DNA from: an uncultured Flavobacteriales bacterium
GTDB taxonomy: Bacteria; Bacteroidota; Bacteroidia; Flavobacteriales; CALTNV01
NCBI GenBank assembly: GCA_943845485.1
Contig: CALTNV010000154.1
Span: forward strand, 1 to 14,952
Length of the DNA stretch: 14,952 nt
Reading direction: 5' to 3'
Part shown: positions 4,972 to 13,210 of the stretch, one piece after another
Position numbering within the stretch: position 1 is the stretch's first letter
How the letters are laid out: every line of letters starts with the position of its first letter
Notes under the pieces: generated by a model
What the model was told of the DNA's origin: nothing
Seen by the model: only the letters and a program-made list of their open reading frames with translations
The model's database searches: none
Made by a program: the position numbers and the translations under genes

Positions 4972-7869
4972 ATGATTGAAAAAAAACTTAAAGATTTCAT
5001 AAAAAAATACTATTTAAATACCCTAATTACAGGTATACTAATTACTATATCATCAATATTATTAACAACAATAATATTTTCAGTCTTAGAATATTATGGA
5101 AAATTTAATACCATAACAAGATTTATTTTTTTTATACTTTATATCTCTATAAACGGAAGTGTGATTATAAATTATATAATAAAACCAATATTACAAATTA
5201 GTAATATTGGTTTTAAAAAAATTGATTTATTAACTGCAGCTACTTTAATTAGAAATAAAAATATTGGAATAAATGATGAGTTAATAAATTACATACAATT
5301 AAAAAGCAGTAAACAAAATAACGACCTTAGGATAGCAGCAATAAATCAAAAAAATATAAAATATAAAACAACAAATTTTACTGAGGCAATTAACAAAAAA
5401 AGCAAAAGAAATTTTATAAAAATTGCTACATCTTGCTTATTAATATTTTCAATATTAATAATTACTAAACCATATATTCTTAAAGAAAGTACACACAGAA
5501 TTATTAATTATAAGAAAATTTTCAATCATAAAAAGGTAGATATATATATCAGTAAAAAACAATTAATAACGCCGAGTAGAAAAAAACACAAAATAGACAT
5601 ATATGTAAACGGAGTAGAAATACCTAAAATATTAGAAATAGAAATAAATGGATATAAATACATATTAAATAAGATAAATAAGAAGCATTTTAACTATACA
5701 TTTAGAAATTTAAATAAAGATATTAAGTTTAAAATTTTGAATAGTAATTTCATATTAAAAGTCTATAAAAAAGCAAATATAAAATCTTTTAAATATATAA
5801 TATCACCTCCAAAACACACAAGAAAAAAAGAATATATAATAGATAATCAACCAAATATTAATATAGAAGAGGGTAGTGAATACGAATTAAATATAATAAA
5901 AGATAAATTAATTAATTTAAAAATTAATAAACAAAAAGTTAAAAACTCTATCAGTGGACAGTTATTTAAAGATTCGTTATTTAGAATAGAAACTTACAAT
6001 AAATATGATACTTTAACTCTAAAACATAGTATTAAAATAAAAAAAGATAAATACCCAATTATAGAAGTAAAACATAGTAAAAAGGAAGATGATATAATAG
6101 ATACAATAAGTATTAAGGATGATTATGGTTTTAAAAAATTAAAATTAATTTTAATTAATTTTAATGATACAACGATAAAAAATATAGGTATTGATCCAGT
6201 ATCAATAAATCAAAAAATAATAAATAAAATAAGTATAAATAATAACAATATAGAATACTACTATATTATATATGATAATGATGTTATTAATAATTTTAAA
6301 AATAATATTAGCGATAAATACACTTATAAAAAACAAAATATTTCCCAGATAATAGAAAAATCAAAAGAAGACGATAAAAAGAAAGAAAACGAGATAAATA
6401 AATCATTAAAAGAGATCGAAAAAATAAATAATGAAATAAACATAGAAAAAACAAATAACATAAATAATAATAAAACATCCAATCAAAAAGAAGAGTTAAC
6501 TGAAAAATTAAAAAAACAATTAGCTATTCAAAAACAAATAAACGAACTAGAGAAAGAATTAAGTTTACCTAAAGAAGATACTTTAGATAAAAAAATTAAT
6601 AATCTTTTAAAACAAATAGATCAACTAAAACAAGAATTAACTCCTGAACAAATAAAAGAGATAGAAGAGGATATAATAAAAGAAAACCAAATTCAAGAAG
6701 AAAAATTAAAAAGGACACTTGAATTATTAAAAAACAAGAAAGCAATTGAAGAATTAAAAAAAATAAAAGAAGAATTAATCAAAGAAATAAAAAATATAAA
6801 TAAAATAAACATTGATGATACTACAAAACTAAATCAATTAAAAACAAATCTTAAAATTTCGGAAGAAGAAATAAATAAAAATCTAAACCAGTTAAATAAA
6901 AAAGAAAATAAAATAAAAAGCTTAAAAGAAGCAAATAATGAACTTGATAAAAAAAACAAAGAAATTGCTAAGGATAAAATAAAAGAAACAATAGATAAAT
7001 TAGATGAAGAAATTAAAAAAGAAGAACAAAAAAAAGAAGAGTTAAATTTAAAAAACTTAAAAGTAGTACTTTTTAACACAATTAATTTATCTATTAATCA
7101 AGAAGATTGTATTTCAAAAAATCCAAAACTAGAAAAACAAATAGAACTTAATAAAAATACTACAAACACACTTGATAGTATAATAGAAATAAGTAAAAAT
7201 TCAGCTTCATTAAGCAATATAGTAATAGATTTAATTTACAACATAAAAAAAGAACAAAACGAAACAATAGGTTATTTTGAAGAAAACAATGTAAATCAAA
7301 TAAATAGAACACAACAAAACATTACTACTAATTTGAATAAATTAGCAGTAATTCTTAACAATGCAGCAAATCAAACTAAGAATAAACTAAAAGGTGAAGC
7401 AAAAAATTCAAATAAAAACAAGATAGAGAAACAACTAAAAGATCAATTAAAACAACTAAAAGATCAAAAAGGAAAAAAATTAAGTAATGGTAAAAAAATT
7501 ACTTTTATGAAAAATGGGGAAAAAATTAATAATGAAATAAATAAAATTAAAAACAAGGAAACACAAGAAAAACTAAGACAGTTACAAGACAACATAAAAA
7601 AAGATATTTTACATGATGATATTAATAACAAAACTATAAACAATTCAGTGAAACAAATTGTTAAATTCTTAGAATATAACAAAGCTAAAGAAACTCAAAA
7701 TAAAAACAATAAAAGAGAATCAGAAAAAAACGAAATATTTAAGGATATTAAAATAAATTCAACCATAGAAAACAAAGACAGACTAGAAAAAAACAAAACA
7801 ATTATAGAGAGTATAATTATAAAAGAAAATTACAATAAACAAAATAATATTTACATCAATAATAAGTAA
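4972..7869 (+). CDS. DUF4175-like membrane protein with long coiled coil
   Basis: This 965-aa protein has an N-terminal membrane module: two helices at about residues 17-37 and 50-70, a soluble linker ending in a conserved-looking segment (LINYIQLK, 104-111), and a third helix at about 150-166. A beta-rich region follows to about residue 450, probably extracytoplasmic. Then comes a very long Lys/Glu/Asn/Ile-rich helical region with heptad-like spacing (about 460-690) and another helical region to the C-terminus. The order, the N-terminal pattern and the C-terminal KRES segment resemble Bacteroidota proteins annotated DUF4175, which I recall upstream of ybeY and mnmG in Flavobacteriia. Such relatives are usually near 1,100 aa, so this one is somewhat short and strongly biased to Lys, Asn, Ile and Glu, which makes fine alignment unreliable. 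The function is unknown. The stop lies 2 nt before ybeY, indicating an operon. Confidence 0.75.
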   Translation: MIEKKLKDFIKKYYLNTLITGILITISSILLTTIIFSVLEYYGKFNTITRFIFFILYISINGSVIINYIIKPILQISNIGFKKIDLLTAATLIRNKNIGINDELINYIQLKSSKQNNDLRIAAINQKNIKYKTTNFTEAINKKSKRNFIKIATSCLLIFSILIITKPYILKESTHRIINYKKIFNHKKVDIYISKKQLITPSRKKHKIDIYVNGVEIPKILEIEINGYKYILNKINKKHFNYTFRNLNKDIKFKILNSNFILKVYKKANIKSFKYIISPPKHTRKKEYIIDNQPNINIEEGSEYELNIIKDKLINLKINKQKVKNSISGQLFKDSLFRIETYNKYDTLTLKHSIKIKKDKYPIIEVKHSKKEDDIIDTISIKDDYGFKKLKLILINFNDTTIKNIGIDPVSINQKIINKISINNNNIEYYYIIYDNDVINNFKNNISDKYTYKKQNISQIIEKSKEDDKKKENEINKSLKEIEKINNEINIEKTNNINNNKTSNQKEELTEKLKKQLAIQKQINELEKELSLPKEDTLDKKINNLLKQIDQLKQELTPEQIKEIEEDIIKENQIQEEKLKRTLELLKNKKAIEELKKIKEELIKEIKNINKINIDDTTKLNQLKTNLKISEEEINKNLNQLNKKENKIKSLKEANNELDKKNKEIAKDKIKETIDKLDEEIKKEEQKKEELNLKNLKVVLFNTINLSINQEDCISKNPKLEKQIELNKNTTNTLDSIIEISKNSASLSNIVIDLIYNIKKEQNETIGYFEENNVNQINRTQQNITTNLNKLAVILNNAANQTKNKLKGEAKNSNKNKIEKQLKDQLKQLKDQKGKKLSNGKKITFMKNGEKINNEINKIKNKETQEKLRQLQDNIKKDILHDDINNKTINNSVKQIVKFLEYNKAKETQNKNNKRESEKNEIFKDIKINSTIENKDRLEKNKTIIESIIIKENYNKQNNIYINNK

Positions 7870-7871
7870 AA

Positions 7872-8285
7872 ATGTCAGAAATAAACTTTAATTATTTAGA
7901 TATCGAAATCAAATTAGATGAGGATCATTATAAAAAATGGATTGAGAAATGCATTCATAAAAATAAAAAACAATTAGGAGAAATTTCCTATGTTTTTTGT
8001 AATGATGAGTATTTATTAAAAATAAACAAAGATTATCTTAATCATGATTATTATACAGATATCATTACTTTTGATTACTGTGAATTAAATAAAATTAGTG
8101 GAGATTTATTTATATCAATAGACAGAATAAAAGAGAATGCAACAATATTAAATAACACATTTCAAAACGAATTAGATAGGGTTATTATCCATGGCATTAT
8201 ACATCTATTTGGACAAAAAGATAAAACTGAGGAAGAAGCAAAAGAAATGCGCATCAAAGAAGATTATTACTTATCTTTGCGTTAA
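7872..8285 (+). CDS. ybeY: YbeY endoribonuclease / rRNA maturation factor
   Basis: At 137 aa it has normal YbeY length. YbeY is a metal-dependent single-strand RNase that acts in 16S rRNA 3'-end maturation and late 30S quality control in the cytoplasm. Visible motifs are the LNHDYYTDIITFDY block at residues 56-69, GDLFISIDR at 77-85, and the metal site HGIIHLFGQKD at 107-117. The first two ligands His107 and His111 are present. The third position of the H-x3-H-x5-H motif is Asp117 instead of His. From memory this KDK-type ending is common in Bacteroidota YbeY, so it is probably a lineage variant and not a loss of activity. It begins 2 nt after the DUF4175-like gene and ends 35 nt before mnmG. 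The intervening gap contains a parS-like site. Confidence 0.93.
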   Translation: MSEINFNYLDIEIKLDEDHYKKWIEKCIHKNKKQLGEISYVFCNDEYLLKINKDYLNHDYYTDIITFDYCELNKISGDLFISIDRIKENATILNNTFQNELDRVIIHGIIHLFGQKDKTEEEAKEMRIKEDYYLSLR

Positions 8286-8297
8286 GAGTAAATTAAT

Positions 8298-8313
8298 AGT
8301 TCCACGTGAAACA
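8298..8313. promoter_or_regulatory. parS-like ParB-binding site 1, just upstream of mnmG
   Basis: AGTTCCACGTGAAACA matches the widespread chromosomal parS consensus TGTTTCACGTGAAACA at 14 of 16 positions: the left half is GTTCC, the right half the consensus GAAAC, and the outermost base A replaces T. The CACGTG centre lies between 8305 and 8306. It fills most of the gap between ybeY and mnmG, ending 7 nt before the mnmG ATG. ParB dimers load at such sites, spread, and recruit SMC for origin segregation (known biology). Binding here is inferred from the match. The second site at 10197 strongly supports it. Confidence 0.82.
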
Positions 8314-8320
8314 TTAAAAA

Positions 8321-10198
8321 ATGATGAGTTTATTAGGTAATTATGATGTAATTGTTGTTGGTGCAGGACACGCTGGTAACGAAGCTGCTGCAGCAGCTGC
8401 TAATTTAGGTAGTAAAACACTACTTATAACAATGAATATGAATACAATTGGCCAAATGAGTTGCAACCCAGCAATGGGAGGAATAGCTAAAGGTCAAATT
8501 GTAAGAGAAATAGATGCACTTGGAGGATATTCCGGAATTATATCTGACAAATCAATGATACAATTTAAAATGCTTAACAAATCTAAAGGTCCAGCAATGT
8601 GGTCCCCTAGATCACAGAATGATCGATTTAGATTTGCAGAAGAATGGAGATTACAATTAGAGAGTTTACAAAACTTAGATTTTTGGCAAGATACCGTTAT
8701 AAAAATAAACACAGAAAAAAATAAAGTTATAGGAGTAACAACTGCACTTGGGGTTACAATAAAATCAAAATCAGTAATATTAACAAATGGAACATTTCTG
8801 AATGGATTAATTCATATAGGTAAAAAGAATTTTGGGGGTGGAAGAATAGGTGAAAGGAGATCAGAAGGATTAACTGAACAATTACAAAGTTTAGGATTCG
8901 AATCTGACAGAATGAAAACAGGAACTCCTCCTAGGGTAGATGGTAGAAGTTTGAATTATAAAAAAATGGAAGAACAACCTGGAGATGAAAAACCAGGTAA
9001 ATTCAGTTTTTCAAACAATACTAAAACACTTAAAAACCAAAGAAGTTGCCATATTACATATACAAACGAGACTGTTCACGAAATATTAAAAGAAGGATTT
9101 AATGAATCTCCAATGTTCTCAGGTAGAATAAAAGGTTTAGGACCTAGATACTGTCCATCAATTGAAGATAAAATTGAAAGGTTTTCGGAAAGAAACCGTC
9201 ATCAAATATTTGTTGAACCAGAAGGGTGGAACACAGTTGAAATATACGTAAATGGCTTTTCAACTAGCTTACCAGAAGAAATACAACTAAAAGCTTTAAG
9301 ACAAATAGAAGGGTTTGAAAATGCTAAAATTTTTAGACCAGGGTATGCTATTGAATACGATTTCTTTCAACCTACACAATTAAAAAACACCCTGGAAACA
9401 AAAAATATAGATAATTTATATTTCGCTGGTCAAATAAATGGAACAACAGGTTATGAAGAAGCCGCAGGACAAGGTATCATAGCTGGTATAAATGCACACC
9501 AAAAAATAAACAATAAAGAAGACTTTACATTAAAAAGATCTGAAGCATATATAGGGGTATTAATAGATGATTTAATAACAAAAGGAACAAACGAACCTTA
9601 TAGAATGTTTACATCTAGAGCTGAATACAGAATACTACTCAGACAAGACAATGCTGATTTAAGACTTACACCTTTAGGTAACAAAATAGGGTTAGCAAGT
9701 AATGAGAGGTTGAAAAATGTAGAATTCAAAAATAAAAATACTTTAGAAGTTATAAATTTCCTAAAAACACAAAGTATAAAACCAGAAAATATAAATCCAA
9801 TATTAGACAAAACAAAAAACACACATTATAAACAACAAGATAAAATCATCAACTACGTTAGGAGACCTAAAACTTCTATATTAGATTTAGAAGAAATCCC
9901 TATTATAAAAGAAAAATTTAGTAAAATAGACAATAAAGATTTAATATTAGAACAAGCAGAAATAACAATAAAATACGAAGGTTATATAAAAAAAGAAGAA
10001 GAGTTAGCTAAAAAACTAAATAAACTAGAAAATATAAATATTAAAAAAGAGTTTGATTATAAACAATTAAAATCTCTTTCGGCTGAAGCTGTAGAAAAAT
10101 TAACAAATATAAGACCTAAAACAATAGGACAAGCTTCAAGAATATCTGGAGTATCTCCATCAGATATTTCAATATTACTAATACATTTTGGAAGATAG
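8321..10198 (+). CDS. mnmG: MnmG (GidA), FAD subunit of the tRNA wobble-uridine modification enzyme
   Basis: MnmG works with MnmE (GTPase) to add the (carboxymethyl)aminomethyl group to C5 of the wobble uridine in certain tRNAs. It uses FAD, NADH and a methylene-folate donor. At 625 aa it is full length. It has the FAD dinucleotide fold GAGHAG at residues 14-19, the block around Cys48 (SCNPAMGG), Cys278 in [13 protein letters not shown] (equivalent to the essential cysteines near 47 and 277 in E. coli), [12 protein letters not shown] at 374-385, [13 protein letters not shown] at 425-437, and a helical C-terminal domain ending [18 protein letters not shown]. Two consecutive ATGs (8321 and 8324) could both serve as start. 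It follows ybeY in the same block, and a parS-like site flanks it on each side; the second overlaps the last base of its TAG stop. Confidence 0.98.
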
Positions 10199-10212
10199 TT
10201 CCACGTGGAACA
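10197..10212. promoter_or_regulatory. parS site 2, overlapping the mnmG stop codon
   Basis: AGTTCCACGTGGAACA contains the perfect 14-bp palindrome GTTCCACGTGGAAC (10198-10211). This is the core of the well-known Bacillus subtilis parS, and the 16-mer differs from it only in the first base. Its first core base is the G of the mnmG TAG stop, and it ends 16 nt before the ATG of the porZ-like gene. The centre is 1,899 bp from site 1. It has no T-run, so it is not a terminator. Two such matches this close are very unlikely by chance in DNA this AT-rich. Confidence 0.87.
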
Positions 10213-10228
10213 AAATAAATAAAATGAA

Positions 10229-12487
10229 ATGAAAAAAACTTTTTTTTTATTAGTAACCTTATTGTTGTTTACAAATATATACACCCAGCAAAATAGATGG
10301 GAAGAATATTTGCAAAAAAGGGATTATAATAATATATGTAATTATAATAATAATATCTATATAAATACTGCAAATATATTAACGGAATATACAGATACAG
10401 AAATAAACAATTACTGGAAAAAAGATCTATTAAATCATATAAATATAAGTTCATTAAATAGTGATAATAACTATTTATACATTGGTTATAATAATGGTGG
10501 AGTTGATATTTTAAATAATAACATAACCAAATCAATAAACGATATTATAAATAGTAATATAAGTACAGATAAAACTATTAATTATATATGTAATAAAAAC
10601 GACACACTGTATATATGTACTAACTTTGGATTTATAACGTATAGTATAAAAAAACAAGAAACCATAGATACTTATTTAATTGGTCGAAATGGTGGTAAAA
10701 TTAAAGTTTTTGATATATTATTTAATAAAAATAAATTATACACAGCAACTAGTGAAGGGTTAAAAAGTATTGATCAAAATGAAAATTATAAGATAATTGA
10801 AAATTGGAATACAATAGATAACCAAGAAACAATTAATATTGAAAATAATAATGATACAATTTATTATATATGTAAAAATTCAGAAAATAAAACAGTAAGA
10901 ATTTTAGAAAATAACACAATAAAGGAGATAGATTTATTTGAGAATAATATAAACAATATTAAATATATAGATAATAAATTATATATAATTACCGATAATA
11001 AAATATACAATACATCTGATGATGTTAATATGGATAGTATCGTAAAATATAATCAATGGACTAATAATATATATCCATCAGATATAACAAAATACAAAGG
11101 TAATATATATATAACTGATCATGAGTATGGTTTAATAAAACAAATAAATAATGATTTTTTTATTAAATACAGAACAGGACCATTTATAGATAATACATTA
11201 AAAGTGAATCAATTAAATAATGAATTGTGGTTTACTCATAGTCCTTCATTAGGATTTAACTATAATAGAAGTGGAGCGTCAAATTATTCGGAATACAATA
11301 ACAACTGGTATATATATAATAGTACTACTTATTATAATCAACTAGATACCATATACGATGCGATAGATGTGGCATTTAACAAGGATGAGAATAAAGCTTT
11401 TATAGGTTACTTTACTCTTGGAGGTGTAGCAGAAATAAAAGATAATAAGTTTATTAAAATACATTCAAATTTTAATAGCACATTAAAACCTACGTATTGG
11501 GGAGCACAAACATCAGTATCATCATTAAGTTATGATAAGGATGGAAACCTATATATTATGTCTAATCAGTCTACAGAAAAACCAATATCAGTATATGCAA
11601 CAGATAGTATATGGTATAATTTACCTTTTACAAATGAAGTTAAAAATAACTTTTTTGGTGATATGATACATACGAACTCAGGGGATGTATGGGTTACAAA
11701 ACCAAGTGGACAAGGATTATTGGTTTTTAATGATCAAAAAACTTTTTTAAATGCGAACGATGACAATATAAAAACTTACACAAACTCACCCGGGGAAGGT
11801 AATTTAATAAGTAATAAAACAACAGCAATAGCAGAAGATAAAAATGGGACGATATGGGTAGGAACGGATAAGGGATTATGTATAATTGACATCTATAATA
11901 CACCGTATGATAACAATAATGAAGCTTATGAAATAATCATTGACAATAATGGGGTAGCAGAGGCTGTATTAGGAAATCAATACATCACATCTATAAAAAT
12001 AGATGGGGCTAATAGAAAATGGATTGGTACAGCAAACGCAGGTGTATTCTTATTAAGTGATGATGGTAGAGAAGAATTATTACATTTTACAACAGAAAAT
12101 AGTCCATTATTAACTGATGAAATATCATCAATTGCAATTAATAAAGAAAATGGAAAAGTATACATAGCAAGTTCATTAGGTACAATATCTTATCAATCAG
12201 ACGCTTCGGAAAGTAAAGAAAATTACAGTGAAGCAAAGATATTTCCAAATCCATTTATTAGGAATAAACATGATTATATTACAATAAATAATCTAACGGA
12301 AAATTCAAACATCAGAATCACTGATATTAGTGGAAATATTATACATCAAAACAATACAAACGGTGGAATGTATCAATGGAATTGTAAAAATATAAATAAT
12401 GAGGATATTAAAACTGGTGTATATCTAATTTTTATATCGAATGAAATAGGAGATACTCATACAACATTAAAATTATTGGTAAAATAA
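10229..12487 (+). CDS. porZ: PorZ-like type IX secretion protein: signal peptide, beta-propellers and C-terminal sorting-type domain
   Basis: This 752-aa exported protein has a type I signal peptide (MKK, then a hydrophobic core at about residues 5-16, with cleavage near YTQ/Q at 19-20). Repeated short beta-propeller blades follow, such as YLYIGYNNGGVDI, LYTATSEGLKSI, IWVGTDKGLCII (542-553) and KWIGTANAGVFLL. The final 81 residues start with FPNP at 672-675 and run through a sorting-type domain (RITDISGNII, GVYLIFISN, TLKLLVK). Two propellers plus this C-terminal domain, at about 750-780 aa, is the PorZ architecture. PorZ is a cell-surface partner of the sortase PorU in the T9SS attachment complex and binds anionic LPS in Porphyromonas gingivalis. 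A generic T9SS-exported propeller protein is the main alternative. The stop codon abuts the recO ATG with no gap, and a parS site lies immediately upstream. Confidence 0.78.
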   Translation: MKKTFFLLVTLLLFTNIYTQQNRWEEYLQKRDYNNICNYNNNIYINTANILTEYTDTEINNYWKKDLLNHINISSLNSDNNYLYIGYNNGGVDILNNNITKSINDIINSNISTDKTINYICNKNDTLYICTNFGFITYSIKKQETIDTYLIGRNGGKIKVFDILFNKNKLYTATSEGLKSIDQNENYKIIENWNTIDNQETINIENNNDTIYYICKNSENKTVRILENNTIKEIDLFENNINNIKYIDNKLYIITDNKIYNTSDDVNMDSIVKYNQWTNNIYPSDITKYKGNIYITDHEYGLIKQINNDFFIKYRTGPFIDNTLKVNQLNNELWFTHSPSLGFNYNRSGASNYSEYNNNWYIYNSTTYYNQLDTIYDAIDVAFNKDENKAFIGYFTLGGVAEIKDNKFIKIHSNFNSTLKPTYWGAQTSVSSLSYDKDGNLYIMSNQSTEKPISVYATDSIWYNLPFTNEVKNNFFGDMIHTNSGDVWVTKPSGQGLLVFNDQKTFLNANDDNIKTYTNSPGEGNLISNKTTAIAEDKNGTIWVGTDKGLCIIDIYNTPYDNNNEAYEIIIDNNGVAEAVLGNQYITSIKIDGANRKWIGTANAGVFLLSDDGREELLHFTTENSPLLTDEISSIAINKENGKVYIASSLGTISYQSDASESKENYSEAKIFPNPFIRNKHDYITINNLTENSNIRITDISGNIIHQNNTNGGMYQWNCKNINNEDIKTGVYLIFISNEIGDTHTTLKLLVK

Positions 12488-13210
12488 ATGAATAATTATA
12501 ATGATGAAGGCATAGTTTTAAAAAAAGTTAAACTCCAAAATCAGAAATATATCATAACGCTTTTTACAAAGTTAAAAGGGAAGCAAACTTTTTATTTCCA
12601 AAACTCATCAAAAAAAAGCAATTTAATAAAACATATTCAAAGTTTATACCTTATAAATTTCTCATCAAAAAAAGGAAAAATTTCTCAATTAAATCAATTA
12701 AAAGACATCTCATTTAATCAAAACTATAAAGATATTCCTTTTAATATTCATAAAACATTTATAATGTTTTTTATAAATGATATTTTAAATAATACAATAA
12801 TAGAGGAAGAAGTAAATGATTTAAAGTATGAATTTATAAAAAATAATTTACTACTATTAGATGAAATAGATGTGTATTATGATTTTCATATAAAATTTTT
12901 AATCCACTATACAAAATTACTTGGAATCACTCCATTGATAAAAAATAAAGATTACAATTATTTAGATATTGAGAATGGAGAATTTAAAAATATTAATAAA
13001 TCTATAAAGTATCAGATAGAAAAAAAATATTCGCTTTATATTAAAGATATTATGTTAAATAAAATACTATATAAAAGTATTATCGCACTTAATAATATAG
13101 AGAGGAGAGAAATTTTAAATATCGTTTTAAAATATTATTCAATTCATTTAAAGGATTTTAAGCTACCAAAATCTTTAGATACATTGAATGAAATCTATAA
13201 CGACTTATAA
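12488..13210 (+). CDS. recO: RecO, recombination mediator
   Basis: RecO works with RecR (and RecF) to load RecA on SSB-coated single-stranded DNA and to anneal strands during repair in the cytoplasm. This 240-aa protein has the N-terminal OB-fold pattern (DEGIVLKKVKLQNQKYIITLFTK region, about residues 6-80). A helical C-terminal domain contains a Bacteroidota-type FHIKFLIHYTKLLGITP segment (133-149) and an ending YYSIHLKDFKLPKSLDTLNEIY. No cysteine occurs in the whole protein, so the zinc finger of many RecO proteins is absent. From memory this is usual in Bacteroidota. It is very Lys/Asn/Ile-rich. Its ATG directly follows the porZ-like stop (TAAATG), implying coupled translation. Its 3' end overlaps the opposing membrane-protein gene by 16 bp. 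Confidence 0.85.
   Translation: MNNYNDEGIVLKKVKLQNQKYIITLFTKLKGKQTFYFQNSSKKSNLIKHIQSLYLINFSSKKGKISQLNQLKDISFNQNYKDIPFNIHKTFIMFFINDILNNTIIEEEVNDLKYEFIKNNLLLLDEIDVYYDFHIKFLIHYTKLLGITPLIKNKDYNYLDIENGEFKNINKSIKYQIEKKYSLYIKDIMLNKILYKSIIALNNIERREILNIVLKYYSIHLKDFKLPKSLDTLNEIYNDL

Follow-up and report, generated by a model that had tools for sequence, protein, structure and literature searches.

parS-like sites flanking mnmG in an uncultured Flavobacteriales bacterium and their conservation across the phylum

Organization of the locus

The window (the whole stretch of DNA analysed here: 14,952 nucleotides of contig CALTNV010000154.1, assembly GCA_943845485.1, from an uncultured Flavobacteriales bacterium) carries a block of five genes on the + strand into which two parS-like sites are set. 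The features are as follows.

4972–7869, + strand: Lys/Asn-rich open reading frame of 965 residues, first gene of the block (from the ORF list)
7872–8285, + strand: ybeY, rRNA maturation RNase, left of site 1 (TIGR00043, PF02130)
8298–8313 (core 8299–8312), unstranded: parS-like site 1, AGTTCCACGTGAAACA, in the ybeY–mnmG gap
8321–10198, + strand: mnmG (gidA), tRNA uridine-34 modification enzyme, between both sites (TIGR00136, 836.8 bits; GIDA, PF01134)
10197–10212 (core 10198–10211), unstranded: parS-like site 2, AGTTCCACGTGGAACA, a perfect 14-bp palindrome in the mnmG–porZ gap
10229–12487, + strand: porZ, type IX secretion protein, right of site 2 (NF052228, 462.1 bits)
12488–13210, + strand: recO, last gene of the block (RecO_N, PF11967, above cut-off; TIGR00613, below cut-off)

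No Pfam or NCBIfam family was found for the Lys/Asn-rich reading frame at E 1e-3; we tentatively take its product to be a DUF4175-type protein. The successive gaps between the five genes measure 2, 35, 30 and 0 nt, so that the two sites occupy the only sizeable gaps of a tightly packed block, as an earlier sequence-only reading of this DNA had described. Both sites lie where that reading had placed them. Site 1 is 7 nt from the start codon of mnmG, and site 2 takes in the final two bases of the stop codon (TAG) of this gene.

Each 16-mer differs from the consensus TGTTYCACGTGRAACA by one mismatch at the outermost 5' base, and both 14-bp cores are exact matches to GTTYCACGTGRAAC. The core of site 2 is palindromic throughout, as had been claimed for it, whereas that of site 1 is broken by one C/A pair. 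Relative to the B. subtilis parS consensus, which we take to be TGTTNCACGTGAAACA, the core of site 1 would fit fully and that of site 2, which had been described as identical to the B. subtilis core, would fit with one change. No consensus match appeared in any of 200 dinucleotide-shuffled versions of the window. The hexamer CACGTG, with an expectation of 0.18, occurs exactly twice in the whole window (two or more copies in 4 of 200 shuffles), both times in the parS-like sites, and the statement that the window holds no other match centred on it is therefore correct.

Conservation of the sites at mnmG

The MnmG search yielded 21 loci, 20 titled within Bacteroidetes and one Eubacteriales, and sites were seen in the same gaps at several of them. 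An exact site is present in 14 of the 19 genomes behind these loci and is absent from G001, G003, G009, G010 and G013. The main sample comprised 99 genomes drawn evenly from the phylum of the Flavobacteriales genome G017 (locus L018), presumably the Bacteroidota as defined by GTDB. The gene mnmG was found in all 99 genomes and exact GTTYCACGTGRAAC sites, 223 in total, in 93; the control, in which the core is read backwards, gave one match each in four genomes. Exactly two exact sites are present in 63 of the 99 genomes. The sites are strongly concentrated at mnmG, with 186 of the 223 within 1.5 kb of the gene, 21 more (207 in all) within 10 kb and two more within 30 kb; the remaining 14 are on contigs other than that of mnmG. 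The earlier assignment of the sites to chromosomal parS agrees with this distribution, and the even scatter of hits that would have counted against it is not seen in the relatives.

An exact site lies at mnmG in 89 of the 99 genomes (94 when one mismatch is allowed) and is absent there in ten. Exact sites are found on both sides of mnmG in 36 genomes, upstream only in 25 and downstream only in 27, with one further genome in which the site, as scored, lies only inside the end of mnmG; an upstream site is thus present in 61 genomes and a downstream site in 63. For the 186 nearby sites the distance to the edge of mnmG has a median of 31 bp, and the commonest upstream offset, −29, is shared by 15 of the 93 upstream sites in the 99 genomes. 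When the MnmG sequences were clustered at 75% identity, 45 of 52 clusters had at least one member carrying a site at mnmG, so the conservation is not explained by relatedness.

The link between mnmG and parS is breakable, since in four of the ten genomes without an exact site at the gene (G031, G051, G054 and G081) the exact sites are on a contig other than that of mnmG. With names read from translations, the displaced sites adjoin murQ-like and mfd-like ORFs in G031 and a threonine-synthase-like ORF in G081 and G054. The mfd-like ORF of G031 (L267:1545) starts MFHVKH; the parS core therefore falls in its first codons, which would place a centromere site within coding sequence.

ParB and its contact residues

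ParB (TIGR00180, E 1e-30) was found in all 99 genomes of the phylum sample; the lack of a ParB gene that the earlier reading had allowed for was not seen among these relatives. PMC7383237 reports R173 and G201 to be among the residues that set specificity for parS, with R204 as a further DNA contact. We compared 37 ParBs, consisting of the best 30 of the 99 genomes by score and seven from genomes in which the sites are lacking or moved. R173 is present in every one of the 37 proteins; G201 is found in 36 of them, as is R204. The motif GERRxRA, as typed, is present in 29 of the 37 and is thus not uniform. The pairing of ParB with its sites described below is suggestive rather than blind, because seven of the 37 ParBs were chosen for lacking or moved sites. 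The consensus is matched in the window itself, and few, clustered copies together with a ParB bearing parS-type residues are found in its relatives.

The two substituted proteins come from genomes in which the sites are also unusual. The ParB of G108 (loci L047 and L273) has A201, and this genome has no exact site and one match with one mismatch (backward control: two). The ParB of G003 has K204, and no parS match was found in this genome at up to one mismatch; what it does carry is TGCTCYACGTRGAGCA, in four copies that all lie upstream of mnmG. At L003:8580–9085 of the same genome, TGCTCCACGTAGAGCA occurs four times on the upstream side of mnmG and is absent from the rest of the 6.5-Mb genome bin. 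The repeats of G003 are a candidate for an altered centromere with a co-changed ParB. In G009 and G010, neither a ParB at E 1e-20 nor a parS match at up to one mismatch was found, so that either the bins are incomplete or the system has been lost. The mnmG flanks of these two genomes are very alike, and they may be one species. Both (loci L009 and L010) are very AT-rich Bacteroidetes genomes. Loss of the exact site is not always paired with a changed ParB, since exact sites are also lacking in G001, G013 and G094, whose ParB contacts are normal and which carry sites with one mismatch.

Position relative to the origin, dnaA and parB

In 17 single-contig genomes (those in which one contig spans nearly the whole genome), dnaA lies 0.4–35% of the genome away from mnmG, within 2.1% in eight of the 17 and more than 20% of the chromosome away in six. 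parB is 7.7–47% of the genome from mnmG in all 17, and the expectation that mnmG and its sites would lie near parAB does not hold in these relatives. GC skew was sampled in five of the six genomes with a distant dnaA, at 20 places each with 20-kb samples (4-kb samples for G060). The fitted origin is nearer to mnmG than to dnaA in all five. Its distance from mnmG is 1.3% of the genome in G074, 3.3% in G024, 1.9% in G060, 6.0% in G046 and 15.4% in G112, compared with 20–48% from dnaA in the same five genomes. The fit stands out clearly against shuffles in G074 and G024 only (0 and 1 of 200); the share of shuffles is 0.065 for G112, 0.085 for G046 and 0.235 for G060. In G024, mnmG lies ∼28 kb outside the best origin interval, and forcing the origin into the interval of mnmG gives a worse fit (SSE of 0.022 versus 0.014). 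An origin-proximal position, as first proposed, is favoured by these fits, clearly in two of the five genomes, and the placement of mnmG and parS near the replication origin is fairly supported.

Strict DnaA boxes are slightly enriched 3.5–5 kb upstream of mnmG (ten boxes versus none in the control, with 62 genomes covered at that distance). The window contains one strict box, which equals the chance expectation. A location of oriC at mnmG itself was considered and rejected: the only cluster of strict boxes near mnmG, three in number, is that of G034, and oriC is therefore probably not beside the gene.

Neighbouring genes and SMC

By profile search, ybeY is adjacent to mnmG in at least 17 of the 99 genomes, a floor because distant YbeYs were possibly missed by the profile. 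A site is still present at mnmG in 74 of the 82 genomes in which no adjacent ybeY was found. Upstream of mnmG the neighbours in 96 genomes belong to 36 families, and downstream those in 99 genomes belong to 29, where the families are longest-ORF picks that may include spurious antisense ORFs. Given the low count for ybeY and the many neighbour families, the sites track mnmG rather than the operon. The suggestion that the link is kept by embedding the sites in an operon is not supported, as the sites are kept among differing neighbours. The representative of an upstream family present in 25 genomes matches the MnmE model and that of a downstream family present in eight matches the GidB/RsmG model; these neighbours recall an old origin cluster.

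SMC (TIGR02168) was found in 85 of the 99 genomes, 82 of them over the cut-off. The other 14 (G017, G030, G038, G042, G046, G058, G062, G070, G074, G085, G089, G101, G105 and G112) gave no TIGR02168 match at E 1e-40, an absence that rests on one model and six candidates scored per genome. They include G017, the nearest to the window on the MnmG tree among the sampled relatives. An exact site lies at mnmG in each of these 14 genomes and in 75 of the 85 with an SMC match; five of the 14 have 3–9 exact parS sites. It is therefore unlikely that the sites are kept where they are by SMC loading, and the idea of a ParB/SMC loading zone across mnmG is not supported. In agreement with this, PMC10197239 reports that no known condensin was found in two Bacteroidetes.

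A second phylum and comparison with known systems

The second phylum is that of locus L019, the one with the Eubacteriales title; 61 genomes were searched, 57 of which have sites. Among the matches listed (38 genomes with a placed mnmG and 75 sites), a site lies within 10 kb of mnmG in 28 of the 38 genomes and within 1.5 kb in six, of the 56 sites no more than 10 kb away 55 are downstream of the gene, and 43 of the 75 sites are 2–6.5 kb downstream. RsmG is encoded in the flank of 28 of the 30 second-phylum mnmG loci checked. Two mnmG copies stand in tandem on one contig in G149, G132, G167 and G169 of this phylum. The link between mnmG and parS, which the earlier reading had thought possibly old, is thus present in both phyla.

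In the Bacillota origin cluster the gene order is mnmG–rsmG–parA–parB. As seen in the second phylum, it shares with the phylum of the window the linkage of mnmG to parS, with RsmG in the mnmG flank; it differs in that, among the matches listed, 43 of 75 sites are 2–6.5 kb downstream and sites lie within 1.5 kb of mnmG in 6 of 38 genomes, versus 89 of 99. The parS sites of B. subtilis and Caulobacter (ParABS) resemble those described here in their TGTTYCACGTGRAACA-type palindrome, their few clustered copies and the R173/G201 ParB of the relatives. In the phylum of the window, however, parB is remote from the sites, and the sites hug mnmG while dnaA lies up to 35% of the genome away. Noc is a relative of ParB, and for the ParB of one sampled genome the best PDB sequence matches are two Noc chains. 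The sites described here are nevertheless CACGTG-core parS, the two window sites do not fit NBS, and the ParBs have R173 (37 of 37) and G201 (36 of 37), in contrast to the Q173/R201 of Noc given in PMC7383237.

In Bacteroides caecimuris a parS cluster is taken as the origin mark, and the same source cautions against assuming that dnaA marks the origin (PMC10197239, available part). The clustering of parS in that origin domain is as found here; mnmG or gidA is unmentioned in that part of the article. The accessible portions of PMC8653839 and PMC13342612 likewise make no mention of parS beside mnmG. No description of sites hugging mnmG across the phylum was found in the open-access literature that we searched. 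Outside that literature lies the main survey of parS, by Livny et al. (2007), which may list some of these sites.

Interpretation of the sites

We consider it highly likely, on comparative sequence evidence, that the palindromes are parS sites near the origin, linked to mnmG and bound by ParB for segregation. Their identity as parS is well supported by the match to the consensus and by its conservation, and they very probably work as parS within the origin region of the chromosome from which the window derives. Several other explanations were weighed. Chance matching might appeal to there being only two sites in the window, each with one mismatch over 16 bp, and it has next to no probability; none of the 200 shuffles matched, the backward core was found once each in four of the 99 genomes, and the conservation of 186 of 223 sites at mnmG already refutes it. 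Hairpins in the operon mRNA (an attenuator, a terminator or a processing site) are rejected as extremely improbable. Site 2 does fold, at −6.2 kcal/mol (z −2.66, with 4 of 200 shuffles as good), but site 1 is no better than shuffles (z 0.25), and the one terminator-like site in 7800–10400 overlaps neither palindrome. Furthermore, the central C/A combination, which has no pairing in mRNA, is found at 25 of 186 sites, about as often as the T/G wobble (30 of 186); since the two are equal as DNA and about equally common, recognition of double-stranded DNA fits best. Operators are typically palindromic sites in operon gaps, a description that the two sites resemble, and an unrelated transcription factor might regulate a ybeY–mnmG–porZ–recO operon through them. 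This too is rejected, as very improbable: a site remains at mnmG in 74 of the 82 genomes without an adjacent ybeY, most genomes (63 of 99) contain only a pair of sites, the cores match the parS core exactly, and the four genomes in which ParB is missing or altered are also without exact sites.

A further alternative accepts ParB as the ligand and holds that the sites serve mnmG, with ParB binding or spreading tuning its expression or coupling tRNA modification to replication, so that function rather than linkage would bind gene to centromere. The sites hug the start codon (7 nt in the window, with −29 as the commonest offset in the phylum) as well as the stop codon, and they stay with mnmG through 36 families of upstream neighbours. 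No single promoter arrangement is kept, however, because in 52 of the 99 genomes the exact sites at mnmG are confined to one flank (upstream in 25, downstream in 27); four genomes have exact sites on another contig, and among the matches listed for the second phylum 43 of 75 sites are 2–6.5 kb downstream of mnmG. We regard this alternative as distinctly unlikely.

If the two palindromes are mnmG-linked parS near the origin, as we prefer, a ParB whose gene lies at another place in the genome would load onto both as a CTP-dependent clamp, the mode of loading established for the ParB family, and would spread over mnmG and its neighbours; ParA would then move the ParB–parS complexes and so separate the sister origins. 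For the organism of the window, we infer both ParB binding and a role of the sites in segregation. The sites, their conservation, ParB with its DNA-contact residues and the origin signal were computed in relatives. The parS–mnmG–parS unit may descend from an old origin cluster, mnmE–mnmG–rsmG–parA–parB, near the replication origin. In that event the link between mnmG and parS would be ancestral, and in the phylum of the window parAB, and often dnaA, would have left the neighbourhood of mnmG while parS stayed. With a median of 31 bp between the sites and the edge of an important gene, the two would be hard to part by rearrangement, and selection would hold parS near the origin; through this tight linkage and selection, gene and centromere would travel together. 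Linkage is the likely cause of the association.

A bolder version would make parS–mnmG–parS a phylum-wide, rearrangeable centromere cassette that marks the origin better than dnaA and needs neither parAB nearby nor, in certain lineages, SMC; the spreading of ParB over mnmG would itself be under selection and would tie segregation to tRNA modification. Taken as a whole, we think this proposal unlikely.

Implications

The wider regularity is that probable centromere sites hug mnmG in most genomes of the phylum, independently of a nearby parB, dnaA or SMC. The gene dnaA commonly serves to locate the origin; as it is more than 20% of the chromosome from mnmG in six of the 17 single-contig genomes, mnmG together with its parS sites may be the better marker, and one that is easy to search for. 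The arrangement also provides defined sites for the study of chromosome folding and separation in SMC-less lineages. Finally, the K204 ParB with TGCTCYACGTRGAGCA sites in G003 and the A201 ParB without exact sites in G108 are candidate pairs for co-change of centromere and ParB.
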